Shown: piece after piece, positions 28,294-34,683 of the stretch
Layout: each line of letters starts with the position of its first letter
How positions within the stretch are numbered: position 1 is the first letter of the stretch
From: Alphaproteobacteria bacterium
GTDB lineage: Bacteria > Pseudomonadota > Alphaproteobacteria > Micropepsales > Micropepsaceae
DNA length: 41,054 nt
Direction: 5' to 3'
Assembly (NCBI GenBank): GCA_023259375.1
Contig: JAHFQC010000041.1
Span: forward strand, 1 to 41,054
Program-made: the position numbers and the translations under genes
Notes under the pieces: generated by a model
What the model saw: only the letters and a program-made list of their open reading frames with translations
What the model was told of the DNA's origin: nothing
The model's database searches: none

Positions 28294-28416
28294 GAACCCC
28301 ATTTTGGGCCGCATCCCAGGGGTTTACCAGCACCGATCAGGACTATTACGACAAGGGTAGAATTAGAGGGACATGCGTCTTAAGTTGGGGAGCAGAAAGC
28401 AATAGATGTTTCCGTG

Positions 28417-29241
28417 ATGCAAGTTTCCGAGGTTTTCGAGGCCGCCCGCCGGGCCCATTTCGCCGTGGCGCTTCACACTGAAAAGGATTTCGAGGGCATG
28501 CGCCGGGCCGGAAGGCTGGCGGCGGAGGTGCTCGATCTGATGGTGCCGGAAGTGAAACCCGGCGTGACCACCGCTCACCTCGACGAGATAGCCTTCAACT
28601 ACATGGTCGACCACGGCGGCGTGCCGGCGTGCCTCGGCTATCGCGGCTACCGCTACACGCTGTGCACCTCGATCAACCATGTCGTCTGCCACGGCATGCC
28701 GTCGGACCGCCCGCTCAAGGACGGCGATATCGTCAACATCGACGTGACCGTGATCCTCGACGGCTGGCACGGCGATTCCAGCCGCATGTATCTGGTCGGC
28801 GAGGTCAAGCGCAAAGCCGCACGGCTGGTCGACATCACCTACGACTCGATGATGCGCGGCATCGCCGTGATCAAACCGGGCGCCACCACCGGCGACATCG
28901 GCCACGCCATCCAGTCCTTCGCCGAAGGCGAGGAAAAATGCAGCGTGGTGCGCGATTTCTGCGGCCACGGCCTGGGACAGGTGTTCCACGCCCTGCCCAA
29001 CATCGTCCATTACGGCAAGCCGGGACACGGCATCGGCCTCAAGCCGGGTATGTTCTTCACCGTCGAACCGATGATCAATCTGGGCGGCTACGGCGTGAAG
29101 GTGCTGTCGGACGGCTGGACCGCGGTGACCCGCGACCGCTCGCTGTCGGCGCAGTTCGAGCACGCCGTCGGCGTGACCGAAGACGGAGTGGAAATCTTCA
29201 CCCTGTCGCCCAAGGGCTGGCACAAGCCGCCGTATCTCTGA
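28417..29241 (+). CDS. map: Type I methionine aminopeptidase
   Basis: Removes the N-terminal Met from nascent proteins with a di-metal site. The product is 274 residues from the ATG at 28417; a GTG one codon upstream is equally possible. The pita-bread fold carries the five metal ligands in order: both Asp in NIDVTVILDGWHGDSSRMY, His in CGHGLG, Glu in FTVEPMI, and Glu in QFEHAVGV. The substrate-pocket HGMP motif is at about 93-96. An N-terminal extension of about 20 residues precedes the usual EGMRRAGRLAAEVLD start. radC follows 51 bases later on the same strand. Confidence 0.97.
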   Translation: MQVSEVFEAARRAHFAVALHTEKDFEGMRRAGRLAAEVLDLMVPEVKPGVTTAHLDEIAFNYMVDHGGVPACLGYRGYRYTLCTSINHVVCHGMPSDRPLKDGDIVNIDVTVILDGWHGDSSRMYLVGEVKRKAARLVDITYDSMMRGIAVIKPGATTGDIGHAIQSFAEGEEKCSVVRDFCGHGLGQVFHALPNIVHYGKPGHGIGLKPGMFFTVEPMINLGGYGVKVLSDGWTAVTRDRSLSAQFEHAVGVTEDGVEIFTLSPKGWHKPPYL

Positions 29242-29292
29242 TCCTCCTCCGGTTGTGGTAAACTCCCCTCGGATTCGGCCGGGGGGCTTGCT

Positions 29293-30003
29293 TTGACGTC
29301 CAAATCCCAGCGCTCGGTTTCCGACGTGGAGATGCCGCATTATGTCGGTCATCGCGAACGCCTGCGCGAACGCTTCTTCAGTGCCGGTCCCGACGCCATG
29401 CCGGATTATGAGCTGTTGGAGCTGACGCTGTTCGCTGCCGTACCGCGGAAAGACGTCAAACCGCTCGCCAAAGCCCTGATCGCCCGGTTCGGATCGTTTG
29501 CCGAAGTCATCGCCGCCCCGCGCGAACGCCTGATGGAAGTGGAAGGCGCGACGGTCGCAGTCGCGGCACATCTCAAGATTGTCGAGGCCGCGGCCCGCCG
29601 TCTGGCCAAGACGCGCCTGTTGGGTCGTCCGGCGCTGGCGTCGTGGGCGGCGCTGATCGATTACTGCGCCGCCGCCATGGCCCGGTCGCAGAAAGAGGAA
29701 TTCCGGGTGCTGTTCCTCGACCGCAAGAATGTTCTGATCGCCGACGAAGTGCAGTCGACCGGCACCGTCGATCATACCCCGGTTTATCCGCGCGAAATCG
29801 TCAAACGCGCCCTCGATCACGGCGCCACCGCCATGATCCTGGTCCACAACCACCCCTCGGGCGATCCCACTCCCTCCAAAGCCGATATCACCATGACCCG
29901 CGACGTCGCCGACGCCGCCAAGGCGCTCGGCATCGTGGTCCACGATCACGTCATCGTCGGCCGCAGCGGCCACGTCAGCTTCAAAGCGCTTGGCCTGCTC
30001 TAG
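29293..30003 (+). CDS. radC: RadC-family JAB-domain protein
   Basis: Zinc metallo-fold protein annotated as DNA repair RadC, though its biochemical role is uncertain. The 236-residue product has an N-terminal helix-hairpin-helix-like domain ([30 protein letters not shown], about 36-65) and a C-terminal MPN/JAB domain with the metal-binding [14 protein letters not shown] (H-x-H and Asp). The start is probably TTG at 29293, since GGGGGG stands six bases upstream. The first in-frame ATG (29332) has a purine tract directly abutting it, which is poor spacing, and would lose 13 residues. It lies 51 bases after map. Confidence 0.93.
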
Positions 30004-30037
30004 CGCGGCCAGTTTTAAGATAATCCCGTGCAAGTGC

Positions 30038-30076
30038 TTCGGCGCGGCGGACGCGGCTGCTATATAGGGCGCCGAA
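30038..30076. promoter_or_regulatory. Inverted repeat flanking a TATATA element upstream of the ABC operon
   Basis: An 8-bp perfect inverted repeat, TTCGGCGC (30038-30045) and GCGCCGAA (30069-30076), encloses a TATATA (30061-30066). It lies 13 bases before the first permease start. It could be a promoter -10 within an operator, or a leader hairpin. No clear -35 is visible. Confidence 0.35.
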
Positions 30077-30088
30077 AGGTGGGGCTTG

Positions 30089-30952
30089 ATGCAGCGGTTC
30101 TTGATCCGCCAGTCCATGCGGCTGGTGGCAGGAGTGTTGGGGGCTGTGCTGATTGCGGCGGCGATCGCTGCGGTCGGCGAACCTGCGGCACACAACCCGC
30201 CCGGCTTCCTCACCGCATTCCTCAGCCATCTGCTCCAGTTCGGCCGCCTCGATCTCGGCACCAGCCTGGTCAGCGGCGCGCCGGTGGTGCAGGAACTTGG
30301 CCGCTATCTGCCGCGAACCCTCGCGCTGGTGGCGATGGGAGCCGTCATCGCCTTGGTCGCCGGCGTGCCGATCGGCTTGTTGCTGACACTCGGGCCGACC
30401 CGCCGTATCGCGGCCCCTCTCATCCAGATCGTCACCGCCACCCCGGTTTTCGTCTCCGGCCTCACACTCGCCTTCGTCGCGGTGCATCTGCTGCACTGGC
30501 CGGTGAGCGTGAACGCGCCGGTGGCGATGCCGTATCAGGTCTGGCAGGTCGCCGTGCTGCCGATCCTGACAGTGGGCTTGGCCGGTGCGGCGGCGGTGCA
30601 ACTGGTTTTGCGCCGGTCGTCGGCCCAGCCGGGTGGTGAATCGTTCCGCACCGGGCTGAAGCGGATGGGCCTCGGCCTGATCGAGATCGAAACCCTCTAC
30701 GTGCTGCCCAAAATGGTGGCCGGTCTTGCCGCCGGCGCGCGCGAGATCGTGCTGGCCCTATTTTCCGCGGCAGTGGTGGCGGAGTGGGTATTTCATTGCG
30801 CCGGTGCCGCCGACCTGTTCGTGAAATCGGTGGCGCTCGCCGACTGGAACATGGCCGCCATCCTGCTGTTCGTGTTTGCCATGGTGACGTTCGTGGTCGA
30901 ATTCTTGGGTGAAGCCATCGCACATGCGCTGGCGCCAGGAGGCCGGCCATGA
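30089..30952 (+). CDS. ABC transporter permease, DppB/SapB type
   Basis: Inner-membrane permease related to dipeptide/oligopeptide importers. From the ATG at 30089 the product is 287 residues. It has an N-terminal helix (about 10-32), then FGRLDLGTSLVSGAPVVQEL (about 51-70), which matches the DppB block before the core. About five helices follow. The cytoplasmic coupling (EAA-like) loop keeps the Gly: FRTGLKRMGLGLIEIETLYVLPK. The late AEWVFHCAGAADLFVKSVALADW matches the DppB block that normally reads ET-F-PG-G. The gene starts a tight operon with 4-base overlaps. No substrate-binding protein is encoded in the window. Confidence 0.85.
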   Translation: MQRFLIRQSMRLVAGVLGAVLIAAAIAAVGEPAAHNPPGFLTAFLSHLLQFGRLDLGTSLVSGAPVVQELGRYLPRTLALVAMGAVIALVAGVPIGLLLTLGPTRRIAAPLIQIVTATPVFVSGLTLAFVAVHLLHWPVSVNAPVAMPYQVWQVAVLPILTVGLAGAAAVQLVLRRSSAQPGGESFRTGLKRMGLGLIEIETLYVLPKMVAGLAAGAREIVLALFSAAVVAEWVFHCAGAADLFVKSVALADWNMAAILLFVFAMVTFVVEFLGEAIAHALAPGGRP

Positions 30953-31752
30953 GCGCGCGCGAGATGCCGTTGGCGAGCCTGATCGTGCGGTCCTTGGGCT
31001 GGCTGGGACTGGGGCTCTGGGCGCTGGCGGTGCTGCTCAGCGACTTCCTCGCTCACGCCCCGGCCGGTGCGGTCATGGTCGGTGCGGAACTGAGCCCGCC
31101 GTCGGGCCTGCATCCCTTCGGCACCGACATCATCGGCCGCGACATGTTCAGCGAGACCCTGCATGGCCTCGCCGCCACCGGCGTGAAGGCGGTCGGCGCG
31201 GCCCTGATTGCCATCGTGCTGGGCGGACTGTTTGGCGCCGTCGCAGTGCGGCTGCCGCGGTTTCCGGCGCTGGTGTTGCGCGGCTTCTGGGGCGTTCTCG
31301 CCTCGGTTCCGGCCCTGCTTTTGGCGATCCTCCTGATCGGCCTGTTCGGCAACGACTTCACCATCTTCGCGGCAGGCCTTGCCACCGCCCCGCTCGGCTT
31401 TGTGCGCAGTTTCGATGCCGTCGACCCGCGTTCCCGCCATGCCGAATACGCCCATGCCACGGGCATTCCCGCCATGATCCTTCTGAAGCGCGACCTGCGC
31501 TACGATTTCCGCCGCATGCTCGGCAGTGTGGTGACGCGGGCGCTGGCGGCGGTGACAATTGTGATTTCGACCGCCAGTTTCCTCGGCTTCGGCGCCAGTC
31601 CGCCGGCCCGCGATCTCGGCCTGATGATTGCCGCCAGCAAAGTGAGCTTCTTTTCCGCCTGGTGGACGGCGGCGTTTCCGGCCCTGGCGCTGATCCTGGT
31701 CATCTTGTGCGCCCGCATGGCGGCGGGCCTCGGTGAAGGGGAGCGGGCATGA
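30949..31752 (+). CDS. ABC transporter permease, DppC/SapC type
   Basis: Second permease of the same transporter. The 267-residue product has an N-terminal helix (about 15-35) followed by LHPFGTDIIGRDMFSETLHG, the DppC hallmark. The coupling loop is YAHATGIPAMILLKRDLR, with the expected G-x9-R spacing. Near the C-terminus, STASFLGFGASPPARDLGLMIA corresponds to the strongly conserved ASLSFLGLG-x-PP block. It overlaps the DppB-type gene and the ATPase gene by 4 bases each (ATGA). Both permeases look intact, in contrast to the ATPase. Confidence 0.87.
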   Translation: MSAREMPLASLIVRSLGWLGLGLWALAVLLSDFLAHAPAGAVMVGAELSPPSGLHPFGTDIIGRDMFSETLHGLAATGVKAVGAALIAIVLGGLFGAVAVRLPRFPALVLRGFWGVLASVPALLLAILLIGLFGNDFTIFAAGLATAPLGFVRSFDAVDPRSRHAEYAHATGIPAMILLKRDLRYDFRRMLGSVVTRALAAVTIVISTASFLGFGASPPARDLGLMIAASKVSFFSAWWTAAFPALALILVILCARMAAGLGEGERA

Positions 31753-33350
31753 ACGAGGCGCTGCTCGAACTCTCCGAACTGACGGTGACCCGCGGCGCCA
31801 ACACGGTGCTCGACCGCCTGTCGCTGCGGCTTGAGCCCGGCGAAAGCGCCATCCTTCTGGGCGAGGAAGGCTGCGGCCGCGAGGCGGTCGTGCGCGTGCT
31901 GGGCGGCTTCCCGGACAAGGCCGACGCCATCTCCGGCACCATCACCTTCGCCGCCACGCCGCCGCGCCCGGCCGCCAAACGTCAGAAGCCGCCGATCCGC
32001 ATCGCTTATCTGCCGAGCCCGCTGGCCGGACCTTTGTCGCCGCACGCCAGCGTGCTCAGGCAGTTGGTGCACATCATCGCCCGCCAGCTCGGCGCCCCCT
32101 TCGGCAGTGCCCGCGAGGAATTGCGTCTGGCGCTCGAACGCTTCCCTACCGCGGTGACGCCGGAACTGCTCGACACCAAGCCCGACCGGCTCGATCCGGT
32201 GACCCTGGCGATCGGCCTTTTGGCGGCGGTGAGCGCCCAGACTCCCGATCTGGTGCTGGCCGACCATCCTTTCGCCGATCTCGGACCGGCCGCGGTCAGA
32301 CTCCTGATGACCCTGTTCAAGGCCGAACACGCCCGGCTGGGCTACGCCTTGATCTATTCCACCGGCGGCTTGCAAGCCGCCGCAAGGCTGGGCGGGCGGG
32401 TACTGGTGCTGCGAACAGGCCGGGTGGTCGAAGAAGGCGACGCCATACGGCTGATGGGCGCGCACGCCCACGCCTATACCAAGACCCTGTTCAAGGCGCT
32501 GCCGCGGCTCAACCGCGATCCGCCCAAGCCGCGCACCGCTCAACGCGGTCAGCCGCTGCTGCAGGTGCATGGACTTTCCTTTAAGCCCAAGACGCCGATG
32601 CGCAACGGCCTCACTTTCGAACTGCGGCGCAACGCGTCGCTGGCGCTGGTCGGCGAAGCCGGTTCGGGGCGGCGGGCGATGCTCAGGGCACTGCTCGGCT
32701 TCGACAAGGCACCCAGCGGCAAAGTGCTGTTCGATGCGGTCGATCTCTATCGCCTGTCCGATGCGATGGCCTCGCGCATCCGCCGCCGCATTGCTTTCGT
32801 CACCGGCGACGACGATTGCCTCGATCCGCGCATGTCGATCCACGACACCGTCGACGAACCCTTGCGGGCTCATCTCGATCTCACCCGCGATCTCATCGCC
32901 GGCTATCGCGATGCGGCGCTGAAGCGGGTCGGTCTTGCCAGTCATGACGGCAACCGCAGCGTTGCCTCGCTGTCGCTGTTCGACCGGCGGCGGCTGCAAG
33001 TGGCGCGCGCCTTCGTCGGCGCCCCCCTTCTGGTGGTGGTCGACGAACCCTTGAAAGGCCTCGACGCCTTCGCCCAAACCATCATGCGCGAAGTGCTGAC
33101 CGACTTCCGCGCCACCCAGGAATCCGCCTTCCTGGTGATGACCTCGGATTTGACTGTGGCCCAGGCCCTCGCCGACGAAGCCCTGGTGTTCCATGACGGC
33201 AAGGTCGTCGAACGCGGCTCGATCGCCCATCTGGTGCGCGCACCCCAGCACGACGCCACCAAGGCGTTGATCGAAGCGGTGAGCTTTTCCGATCTTTCGC
33301 CGGCTGATCTTTCGCCCGCCGACCTTTCGTCCGGGAGTTCTTCGGGATAG
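31749..33350 (+). CDS. Fused tandem ABC ATPase with degenerate nucleotide-binding motifs
   Basis: Two ABC nucleotide-binding domains in one 533-residue chain (about 1-255 and 268-510), as in DppD-DppF fusions, but the catalytic motifs are largely lost. Domain 1: Walker A is GEEGCGRE with R44 for Lys; no Q-loop Gln; no LSGGQ signature; Walker B DHP with H173 for the catalytic Glu; switch His replaced (STGG, about T205). Domain 2: Walker A GEAGSGRR with R308 for Lys; no Q-loop Gln; signature LSLFD (408-412); switch His replaced by S466. Domain 2 keeps Walker B VVVDEP and the D-loop GLDA. The frame is open and starts by 4-base overlap with the permease, so it is not an obvious pseudogene. It either binds ATP weakly or works as a non-hydrolysing subunit. 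The C-terminus has a short tandem repeat. Confidence 0.86.
   Translation: MNEALLELSELTVTRGANTVLDRLSLRLEPGESAILLGEEGCGREAVVRVLGGFPDKADAISGTITFAATPPRPAAKRQKPPIRIAYLPSPLAGPLSPHASVLRQLVHIIARQLGAPFGSAREELRLALERFPTAVTPELLDTKPDRLDPVTLAIGLLAAVSAQTPDLVLADHPFADLGPAAVRLLMTLFKAEHARLGYALIYSTGGLQAAARLGGRVLVLRTGRVVEEGDAIRLMGAHAHAYTKTLFKALPRLNRDPPKPRTAQRGQPLLQVHGLSFKPKTPMRNGLTFELRRNASLALVGEAGSGRRAMLRALLGFDKAPSGKVLFDAVDLYRLSDAMASRIRRRIAFVTGDDDCLDPRMSIHDTVDEPLRAHLDLTRDLIAGYRDAALKRVGLASHDGNRSVASLSLFDRRRLQVARAFVGAPLLVVVDEPLKGLDAFAQTIMREVLTDFRATQESAFLVMTSDLTVAQALADEALVFHDGKVVERGSIAHLVRAPQHDATKALIEAVSFSDLSPADLSPADLSSGSSSG
33291..33335 (+). repeat. Three 15-base tandem repeats in the ABC ATPase 3' end
   Basis: Units 33291-33305, 33306-33320 and 33321-33335 differ by a few bases and encode DLSPA, DLSPA, DLSSG. 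They form a Ser-rich tail beyond the last ABC domain. Slippage-type expansion of the C-terminus is likely. Confidence 0.8.
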
Positions 33351-33381: not shown

Positions 33382-34683
33382 ATGATCCCGCGCTACGCCC
33401 GCGCCGATATGACCGCGATCTGGTCGGCCGAAACAAAATTCCGCATCTGGTTCGAAATCGAGGCCCATGCGGCGACCGCGCTCGCCAAACTCGGCGTCAT
33501 TCCGGAACATGCCGCCAAGACAGTGTGGGAGAAGGGCTCGGTCGCGAAATTTGATGTCGCGCGGATCGACGAGATCGAACGCGAGGTCAAGCACGACGTC
33601 ATCGCCTTCCTCACCCATCTATCGGAGATCGTCGGCCCCGAAGCGCGCTTCGTCCATCAGGGCATGACCTCGTCGGATGTGCTCGACACCTGCCTCGCGG
33701 TGCAGATGAAGCGCGCCGCCGACATCCTGATCGCCGACGTCGACAAACTGCTCGAAGCGATCAAGACCCGCGCCTTCGAACACAAGCTGACGCCCTGCAT
33801 CGGCCGCAGTCACGGCATCCATGCCGAGCCGACCACCTTCGGGCTCAAGCTTGCCGGTTACTATGCCGAATTCACCCGCGCCCGCGCGCGGTTGGTGACG
33901 GCGCGCGAGGAGATCGCCACCTGCGCCATTTCCGGCCCCGTCGGCACCTTCGCCAGCGTATCGCCCGAAGTGGAGGCGTATGTCGCCGAACAGCTCGGCC
34001 TGAAAGTCGAGCCGGTCTCGACCCAGGTGATCCCGCGCGACCGTCATGCCGCATTCTTCGCCGCGCTCGCCGTGGTGGCCTCGTCGCTCGAACGGCTGGC
34101 GGTCGAGATCCGCCACTTGCAGCGCACCGAAGTGTTGGAAGCCGAGGAATATTTCTCGCCCGGCCAGAAGGGCTCTTCGGCGATGCCGCACAAGCGCAAT
34201 CCGATCCTGTCGGAGAACGTCACCGGCCTCGCTCGCATGGTGCGCTCCGCCGTGATCCCGGCGCTCGAAGACGTGGCGCTGTGGCACGAGCGCGATATCT
34301 CGCACTCCTCGGTCGAACGCTATATCGGCCCCGACGCCACCATCACGCTGGACTTCGCGCTGGCCCGCGTCACCGGACTGATCGCCAAGCTGGTGGTCTA
34401 TCCCGAGCATATGCTGGCCAACCTCAACCGCACCCATGGCGTCGTCAACAGCCAGCGGGTGATGCTGGCGCTGACGCAGAAGGGTCTGGCGCGCGAAGTC
34501 GCCTATCGCCTAGTGCAGAAGAACGCCATGCGCGCCTTCAACGGCGAAGGTCCGCTGCTCGACCTGTTGAAGAAAGATCCCGACGTCACCAAGGCGCTGA
34601 CGACGGCGGAGCTGGAATCGCTGTTCGACCTCGGCTTCCATCTGAAGAACGTCGACACGATTTTCGCGCGGGTGTTTGGGTAG
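33382..34683 (+). CDS. purB: Adenylosuccinate lyase
   Basis: Acts twice in purine metabolism: it splits SAICAR to AICAR and adenylosuccinate to AMP, releasing fumarate. The 433-residue product is of standard length. The fumarase-superfamily blocks are present: [12 protein letters not shown] (about 93-104), [12 protein letters not shown] with the catalytic His, and the signature loop [11 protein letters not shown] (about 263-273) with the catalytic Ser. The N-terminus [15 protein letters not shown] is typical of the bacterial enzyme. It starts 31 bases after the ABC gene stop, with a GAGGACGATAGGAC leader. Downstream purC and purS lie 5 kb away, separated by unrelated genes. Confidence 0.98.

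Follow-up and report, generated by a model that had tools for sequence, protein, structure and literature searches.

The three-gene cassette considered here lies in a 41,054-nucleotide stretch of DNA, hereafter the window, which comprises positions 1 to 41,054 of contig JAHFQC010000041.1 in assembly GCA_023259375.1. The genome concerned (G000; 155 contigs, 96.5% complete) belongs to the lineage Rhizomicrobium, and the nearest named record in a GTDB contig scan is R. electricum DSM 21034, with 88% identity of the ATPase. The cassette is of the Opp/Dpp type, runs in the order perm1-perm2-fused ATPase and is flanked in the window by radC and purB.

30089-30952, plus strand: perm1, OppB/DppB-type permease of 287 residues, with an alternative TTG start at 30086
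30949-31752, plus strand: perm2, assigned to the OppC/DppC type of permease, 267 residues, with a 4-base overlap with perm1
31749-33350, plus strand: fused two-domain pseudo-ATPase of 533 residues, with a 4-base overlap with perm2
28414-29241, plus strand: map
29293-30003, plus strand: radC, upstream of perm1
33382-34683, plus strand: purB, downstream of the ATPase

All three cassette frames are open and each junction is a 4-base ATGA overlap, as a sequence-only reading of the window had described. Perm1 matches PF00528 in Pfam (E 3.4e-8), and a profile search returns DppB and OppB chains. Perm2 has no Pfam match at 0.01, matches NCBIfam Opp2C at E 2.4e-25, under the cut-off of that family, and returns DppC and OppC chains in a profile search; its OppC/DppC-type assignment is from sequence comparison only. 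The ATPase contains PF00005 in two stretches together with a partial oligo_HPY match. NCBIfam matches of both permeases are of the Opp/Dpp/Nik/Gsi/Sap type and those of the ATPase are best to the YejF, NikE and dipeptide types, each of them falling well short of its cut-off.

The ATPase comprises two nucleotide-binding domains (NBDs) of the ATP-binding cassette (ABC) kind. Its motifs were compared among 30 cassette orthologues, all of the genus, and a canonical set of 43 fused homologues drawn from class and genus, five of 48 candidates having been dropped for a profile match that did not span both domains. A more distant relative, from the sister-genus genome G812, was read alongside. Counts in the following list refer to these sets.

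31791-31793, plus strand: A-loop position of NBD1, Arg rather than Phe/Tyr (Phe/Tyr in 0/30 cassette versus 35/43 canonical proteins)
31860-31886, plus strand: Walker A of NBD1, GEEGCGREA (R44, E45), from codon check and orthologue alignment
32190-32222, plus strand: place of the NBD1 signature, LSGGQ lost (Ser-Gly-Gly in 43/43 canonical proteins, other residues in the cassette columns)
32250-32270, plus strand: Walker B of NBD1, His173 in the place of Glu (H 20, D 6, S 2, T 1, R 1, n=30; Glu retained in G812)
32652-32678, plus strand: Walker A of NBD2, GEAGSGRRA (R308, R309), with R308 in 30/30 and also in G812, and Lys in 43/43 canonical proteins
32796-32828, plus strand: Q-loop of NBD2, Gln lost (Gly 27, Ser 3, n=30, versus Gln in 43/43 canonical proteins)
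32970-32996, plus strand: NBD2 signature, LSxFDxRRL replacing LSGGQ (position 411: F 29, Y 1; D412, R414 and R415 each 30/30)
33030-33050, plus strand: Walker B of NBD2, Asp-Glu retained (E433 30/30, D432 29/30; Tyr-Glu in G812)
33144-33146, plus strand: switch position of NBD2, Ser466 rather than His (S 21, A 8, G 1, n=30, versus His in 43/43 canonical proteins)

A codon-by-codon check confirmed R44, R308, H173, G206, S466, T352/G353 and F411-D412 in the window protein, the two Walker A arginines being encoded by CGC at 31878-31880 and CGG at 32670-32672. The sequence-only reading had noted Arg for the Walker A Lys in both domains. As a trait of the family this holds for NBD2, where Arg occupies the position in all 31 cassette ATPases (30 of the genus and G812) and is followed, in the genus orthologues, by Arg in 21, His in 7 and Glu in 2, but not for NBD1, where 24 of the 30 genus orthologues keep the Lys and the remainder have Arg (3), Thr, Ala or Asn (1 each). 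The adjacent position 45, canonically Ser or Thr, is Glu in 13, Asp in 13, Gly in 3 and Ser in 1, and is thus acidic in 26/30; Asp172 of the NBD1 Walker B is present in 27/30. The other losses that had been listed, of both Q-loop Gln, both LSGGQ motifs, both switch His and the first Walker B Glu, were borne out by the codon check and the alignments. No Gln or His stands in the Q-loop and switch columns of either domain in any cassette row of the joint alignment, and Arg308 together with the loss of the NBD2 Q-loop Gln, LSGGQ and switch His is common to 31/31 cassette ATPases. Canonical homologues retain the Walker A Lys, Walker B Glu, Q-loop Gln and switch His of each domain, as well as the LSGGQ of NBD2, in 43/43 throughout, so the losses in the window are far from chance.

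The motif L-S/T-x-F/Y-D-x-R-R-L stands at the NBD2 signature in most of the 30 orthologues. In G812 the corresponding segments are GERGSGRRA (Walker A of NBD2), LSELD (signature), ITADF (switch) and GSLGADREA (P-loop of NBD1), with the NBD1 Walker B retained as ADEP and that of NBD2 reading LYEP; from this comparison, four losses in NBD2 (Lys, Q-loop, signature and switch) are common to both genera, and other sites have decayed differently in each. The aromatic A-loop column of NBD2 is a gap in 26/30, with a Phe two columns earlier in 10/30, including the window protein; loss of this A-loop was set aside as the outcome hinges on the alignment. Neither composite ATP site is complete, both being without Q-loop Gln, LSGGQ and switch His, and both sites are degenerate as judged by their motifs. 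The window ATPase has two Cys in total, and Cys counts, considered as a test for an Fe-S cluster, vary widely in both the cassette and the canonical families.

The degenerate cassette is found in 30 of the 69 genomes of the genus by a perm2 search, with the ATPase beside perm2 in all 30. Across the order, profiles of the ATPase (E 1e-100) and of perm2 (E 1e-27) match the same 31 of 96 genomes, namely these 30 and G812, which is one of 27 genomes of the other genera of the family, has the order radC, perm1, perm2, ATPase, purB and shares 42% identity in the ATPase. A search of 385 genomes of the class gave the cassette genomes G000 and G068 as the top two (E below 1e-250), with the next at 1.5e-80, and among 398 genomes of the phylum only G000 and G726 pass 1e-85, the motifs of G726 being intact. 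The GTDB contig scan, which demands exact peptide patterns, returned 31 loci, of which 25 are cassettes (48-88% identity) and six are weak ABC matches (21-29%). No orthologue with an intact Walker A and LSGGQ was found, and the NBD2 changes and the gene order are shared by the 30 genus orthologues and G812, as expected of a conserved degenerate family. In the ATPase tree a branch with a Shimodaira-Hasegawa-like approximate likelihood ratio test (SH-aLRT) value of 100 separates the 31 cassette proteins from the 43 canonical proteins; the attachment of the cassette clade is unsure owing to a long-branch warning from the program.

Ratios of nonsynonymous to synonymous substitution rates (dN/dS) were calculated by the Nei-Gojobori method for 12 author-chosen pairs and three cassette genes (36 gene-pair comparisons), two pairs involving G072 being unreliable with dS above 1. 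The values are 0.078-0.370 for the ATPase, 0.058-0.358 for perm1 and 0.067-0.272 for perm2 (12 pairs each), well below 1, which the sequence-only reading had named as a sign of a conserved degenerate family, with 0.042-0.267 for the flanking purB (9 pairs) and 0.056-0.257 for radC (8 pairs). The ATPase dN exceeds that of purB in 9/9 shared pairs, and the ATPase is therefore faster than purB, yet far under neutrality. There are no premature stops in the 30 cassette ATPases, a TAG at codon 530 in G032 being the normal end, and 4-base overlaps with script-picked starts are found at the perm2/ATPase junction in 27/30 and the perm1/perm2 junction in 23/30. The start of the contig truncates perm1 in G078 and, it appears, in G072. 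By these measures, the three-gene set is open and under purifying selection across the genus, and a relative occurs in a sister genus. Recent single-strain decay and sequencing artefact are both ruled out by the 31 genomes in two genera, the open frames and the dN/dS values, and the latter also by seven other ABC proteins of G000, fetched out of 27 other matches, since the Walker A reads GK[ST] and the signature LSGG[QEM] in all seven.

The distribution of constraint within the ATPase has shifted. Column entropy (in bits) was compared between the cassette and canonical sets, and as these are unequal in divergence only a change of ranking counts. Mean entropy is 1.41 in the cassette versus 0.93 in the canonical set for the NBD1 signature/Walker B/switch region and 1.61 versus 1.57 for the NBD1 core, compared with 0.78 versus 1.65 for the NBD2 Q-loop and helical subdomain and 0.58 versus 0.71 for the NBD2 signature helix. 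The Q-loop/helical region of an NBD is the docking place of the permease coupling helix, and its strong conservation in NBD2 therefore suggests that permease-NBD assembly is retained.

The permease features that bear on such an assembly, and on substrate delivery, are as follows, with the helices of perm1 taken from its AlphaFold2 (AF2) model.

30176-30199, plus strand: short linker of perm1 from transmembrane helix 1 (TM1) to the next helix, at the place of the canonical DppB scoop (AF2 helices 2-29, 32-35 and 37-53)
30644-30664, plus strand: predicted cytoplasmic coupling (EAA-like) helix of perm1, residues 186-192, aligned with the canonical DppB EAA loop
31120-31143, plus strand: GTDxxGRD motif of perm2, as in OppC/DppC (G58, T59, D60, G63, R64 and D65 each 30/30)
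31153-31155, plus strand: invariant Glu69 of perm2 (E 30/30; R 8, G 4 in 12 canonical DppC)
31612-31614, plus strand: invariant Asp222 of perm2 (D 30/30; S in 12/12 canonical DppC)

The permeases had been described as normal in appearance, which for perm1 does not fully hold, as TM1 runs near-directly into the next helix and the scoop segment of DppB is absent. Between 52 and 59 residues stand ahead of the conserved Gly57 in 28 of 29 aligned rows (the remaining row, G072, is truncated), whereas canonical DppB (n=12, starts trimmed by script) has an extra segment at the place of the short linker; perm1 of G812, read by eye, likewise has no scoop segment. In Escherichia coli DppB the scoop is reported to comprise residues 32-62 and to dock in DppA, and its deletion to impair growth on dipeptides and to reduce ATPase activity to roughly a quarter (PMC12136057). 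Perm1 has invariant residues in its C-terminal third, and perm2 keeps a WW pair and an invariant D182, a position occupied by His (8), Gln (2) or Glu (2) in 12 canonical DppC.

A binding protein and a second motor were sought in the same genomes. No substrate-binding protein gene is seen among the cassette neighbours read, either in the window, as had been noted, or at orthologous loci. SBP_bac_5 proteins are present in 60/69 genus genomes, but have no match in G000; they go unmatched in 7/30 cassette genomes (G000, G062, G064, G007, G065, G011 and G026, of which G062 is one contig) versus 2/39 cassette-less genomes. The sole oligo_HPY match in G000 is the cassette ATPase itself, and no other two-domain Opp/Dpp-type ATPase, canonical or otherwise, was found in this assembly of 155 contigs at 96.5% completeness, the next match (162.8 bits) being an ABC protein with one domain. 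Thus, G000 yielded no cluster-C binding protein and no cognate motor. Set against the features of an Opp/Dpp/Nik importer, the cassette has an OppB/DppB permease fold, an apparent OppC/DppC permease with GTDxxGRD and two ATPase folds of the OppD/OppF kind, but no complete composite ATP site, no DppB scoop and no cluster-C binding protein that could be found.

The AF2 model of the ATPase, built with 25 sequences, keeps both ABC folds, with a predicted local distance difference test score (pLDDT) of 87.5 and a predicted template modelling score (pTM) of 0.84. Its best structural match is DppD of Mycobacterium tuberculosis in the apo state (8wd9_D; Z 32.4, root mean square deviation (rmsd) 3.1, 491 residues aligned), followed among DppD/OppD matches by the substrate-bound form (Z 31.3), an ATP-bound form with a DppA mutation (8xfc; Z 31.2) and an ATP-bound entry (Z 29.1, rmsd 4.3, 486 aligned). 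For perm1 (pLDDT 82.8) the best Foldseek matches are the OppB/DppB chains 8z21_A, 8wda_B, 8wd9_B and 8z1v_A. In sequence and structure alike, M. tuberculosis DppABCD/OppABCD (8wd9, 8j5q) are the best matches to the cassette, and they are reported to share its composition of two permeases and one fused two-NBD ATPase (PMC12136057). Those complexes are, by their entry titles, substrate- or ATP-bound with a binding protein; the cassette has lost the ATP-site motifs and the scoop. E. coli DppABCDF resembles it in permease kinship and fold and in the position of the coupling helix, but its ATPase activity is reported to require DppA and each ATPase to carry a four-Cys [4Fe-4S] cluster (PMC12136057), unlike the window ATPase with its two Cys and perm1 without a scoop. 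The YejF-type fused ATPase (NF011713) is the top NCBIfam match of the window protein, aligned over 2-509, although its score of 181 bits is far from the cut-off (834), and the cassette proteins branch apart from the 43 canonical ones.

Cycling driven by ATP is what defines ABC transporters, and single dead sites are well known. In CFTR, SUR, TmrAB, TM287/288 and MsRv1273c/72c one degenerate site is reported to be under selection, with a structural role for the dead site (PMC7756269; PMC12038006). Degeneration is also kept by selection in the cassette, but these proteins retain one competent site, according to a review that deals with type I exporters (PMC7756269), whereas the cassette encodes an importer-type complex with both composite sites degenerate and no consensus site left. 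No importer-type complex in which both sites are degenerate yet maintained by selection was found in a search confined to the open-licence PMC literature, and for that reason this absence proves little.

The locus also records a history of presence and absence. The genes radC and purB flank the cassette on the upstream and downstream side, respectively, in 23/30 of the fetched stretches; radC alone is seen in three, purB alone in three and neither in one (G072, where the cassette sits at the contig start). Neighbouring genes were named from reading translations, with no family scan. In G033, G080 and G072 an alanyl-tRNA-synthetase-like gene lies downstream and purB is on another contig, and the cassette locus therefore differs among genomes. 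In 31/39 cassette-less genomes the purB region was inspected (three further loci are purB regions of cassette genomes), and no remnant of the three genes was found there at E 1e-5. The site is empty in some, with a radC-purB gap of 67-72 bases in nine and 15 bases in one; other loci carry inserts of up to about 5 kb, the widest gap reaching about 5.4 kb, or have no radC within the stretch (four). On a tree of Map, RadC and PurB from 61 genomes the presence label changes 4 times, compared with about 20 in shuffles. The tree is midpoint-rooted and leaves gain versus loss unsettled; ancient presence followed by several losses is favoured in view of the same gene order in G812.

Several other observations concern the surroundings. 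An aldehyde-dehydrogenase-like gene (succinate-semialdehyde type by eye) lies between the ATPase and purB, directly downstream of the former, in G004, G030, G023 and G002, and a multicopper-oxidase-like gene lies upstream of perm1 in G034, G013 and G076. Neighbours were considered as a functional clue and set aside, as they vary between lineages and none resembles a binding protein. In G067 (L072, 5831-7614) DNA cytosine methyltransferase-like and very-short-patch-repair endonuclease-like genes are inserted in the radC/perm1 interval, and for this reason the radC/cassette site may be an integration spot. RadC is seemingly split into two overlapping pieces in G015 (C4:82947-83655) and G088 (C12:2787-3442). 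In the window, long antisense frames on the minus strand at 28363-30261 (632 residues, over map and radC) and 31500-33251 (583 residues, over the ATPase) are probably a by-product of high guanine-cytosine content.

Taken together, the cassette is probably a conserved pseudo-ABC importer that assembles, hydrolyses no ATP and serves as an ATP-independent scaffold or sensor. The two parts of this explanation differ in strength: a non-hydrolysing pseudo-ABC complex is highly probable, and, granted such a complex, a scaffold or sensor role is an evenly balanced proposition. The genes would encode a DppBCD-like complex of two permeases and one fused two-NBD protein, descended from an Opp/Dpp peptide importer and assembled in the inner membrane with the helical subdomain of NBD2 clamped on a permease coupling helix. 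The complex would hydrolyse no ATP, and its resting state may be inward-facing by analogy with DppBCDF, which without DppA is reported to be inward-facing and to have no ATPase activity (PMC12136057). Its job might be that of a membrane scaffold or sensor, signalling to or docking partners, with an energy-independent or ion-driven permeation path as the second choice. Retention of the NBDs, and the tighter constraint on NBD2, give the former a modest preference over secondary or passive transport. The core proposal of the sequence-only reading, a degenerate and probably non-hydrolysing complex kept by selection, came through the sequence comparisons made here; its option of energising by another ATPase is not supported for one of the OppD/F type, none being found in G000.

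A number of points weigh against this explanation. The cassette is dispensable, not being found in 39/69 genus genomes, and its presence label changes 4 times on the genus tree. SBP_bac_5 proteins are carried elsewhere in the genome by 23/30 cassette genomes, and two of the seven genomes without them are incomplete (G011 75%, G026 82%). Perm2 retains GTDxxGRD, and for this reason some periplasmic partner may persist. The structural fit leaves the conformation undecided, the Z of 31.2 for ATP-bound 8xfc being near that of the apo form. NBD2 also retains its Walker B Asp-Glu and D-loop and NBD1 its Lys44 in 24/30, so that residual nucleotide binding is possible, in NBD1 for those orthologues that bear Lys44.

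The alternatives are taken here in order of their standing; the likelihoods attached to them overlap with that of the preferred explanation and do not sum to one. The strongest, though unlikely, is that a substrate is still moved without ATP, passively or by an ion gradient, which shares the dead motor with the preferred explanation. Both permease folds are kept, as are invariant residues in the C-terminal third of perm1 and the GTDxxGRD and WW of perm2, and Glu69 and Asp222 of perm2 are candidates for ion coupling; the ion-driven option stays alive because of such newly gained acidic residues. Against it, the scoop and a binding protein are missing, Glu69 and Asp222 may equally be contact sites, and the NBD pair would be superfluous, although no part of the ATPase is under tighter constraint than NBD2. 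SbmA presumably has no NBD of its own, and the cassette, with NBDs present and conserved, differs in this from SbmA/BacA and falls outside the SLiPT family, whose ABC-like transmembrane domain comes without an NBD. Nevertheless, SbmA, of that family, is described as an ABC-like transmembrane domain that works without ATP and is energised by protons (PMC13316013), a precedent for transport of this kind.

A complex that is gated by ATP without hydrolysing it, with NBD1 binding nucleotide as a regulatory ligand, is improbable. CFTR- or SUR-like proteins use nucleotide in this way, and the frequent Lys44 and Asp172 (24/30 and 27/30) would permit it; however, the A-loop aromatic of NBD1 is lost in every genus orthologue, Ser/Thr45 has become Asp/Glu in 26/30 and the opposing LSGGQ and the Q-loop are gone, while position 44 is Arg in the window protein and the P-loop of G812 reads GSLGADREA. 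Still less credible is an active transporter in which Arg308, Glu433 and LSxFDxRR form a working non-canonical ATPase. The Walker B Asp-Glu and D-loop of NBD2 persist in 29-30 of 30 and the L-S/T-x-F/Y-D-x-R-R-L motif is invariant in most rows, but Lys, Q-loop Gln, LSGGQ and switch His are lost jointly, a state from which we know of no route to the gamma phosphate, and G812 has Tyr at the Walker B Asp position of NBD2. A pseudogene set in decay would fit the patchy presence, the lost motifs and the faster ATPase dN, but is scarcely tenable given frames without premature stops, dN/dS of 0.06-0.37, retained overlaps (27/30 and 23/30), occurrence in two genera and no remnants in 31 cassette-less loci. 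It is as far-fetched that another, intact ATPase of the OppD/F type energises the complex in trans. Canonical two-domain Dpp ATPases do accompany the cassette in other genomes, such as G061, G010 and G021, but G000 has no other two-domain Opp/Dpp match and no oligo_HPY match beyond the cassette.

The findings suggest that, in soil bacteria related to Rhizomicrobium, a transporter has turned into something that works without ATP. On balance, the Rhizomicrobium family appears to have converted an entire importer-type complex into a membrane machine that is obligately independent of ATP, with the NBDs kept purely as structural or signalling parts. With an invariant Phe/Tyr-Asp at the place of the ATP-sensing LSGGQ and invariant acidic residues gained by perm2, ion coupling or partner binding may have taken over from ATP as the drive, a proposal that is rather more likely than its negation. 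If confirmed, the cassette would be a natural experiment on the roles of NBDs beyond hydrolysis and would offer a way to test signalling or conduction by an Opp-type translocator without ATP. It would also be a warning for annotation, as such a cassette should not be named an ordinary peptide transporter from homology alone.

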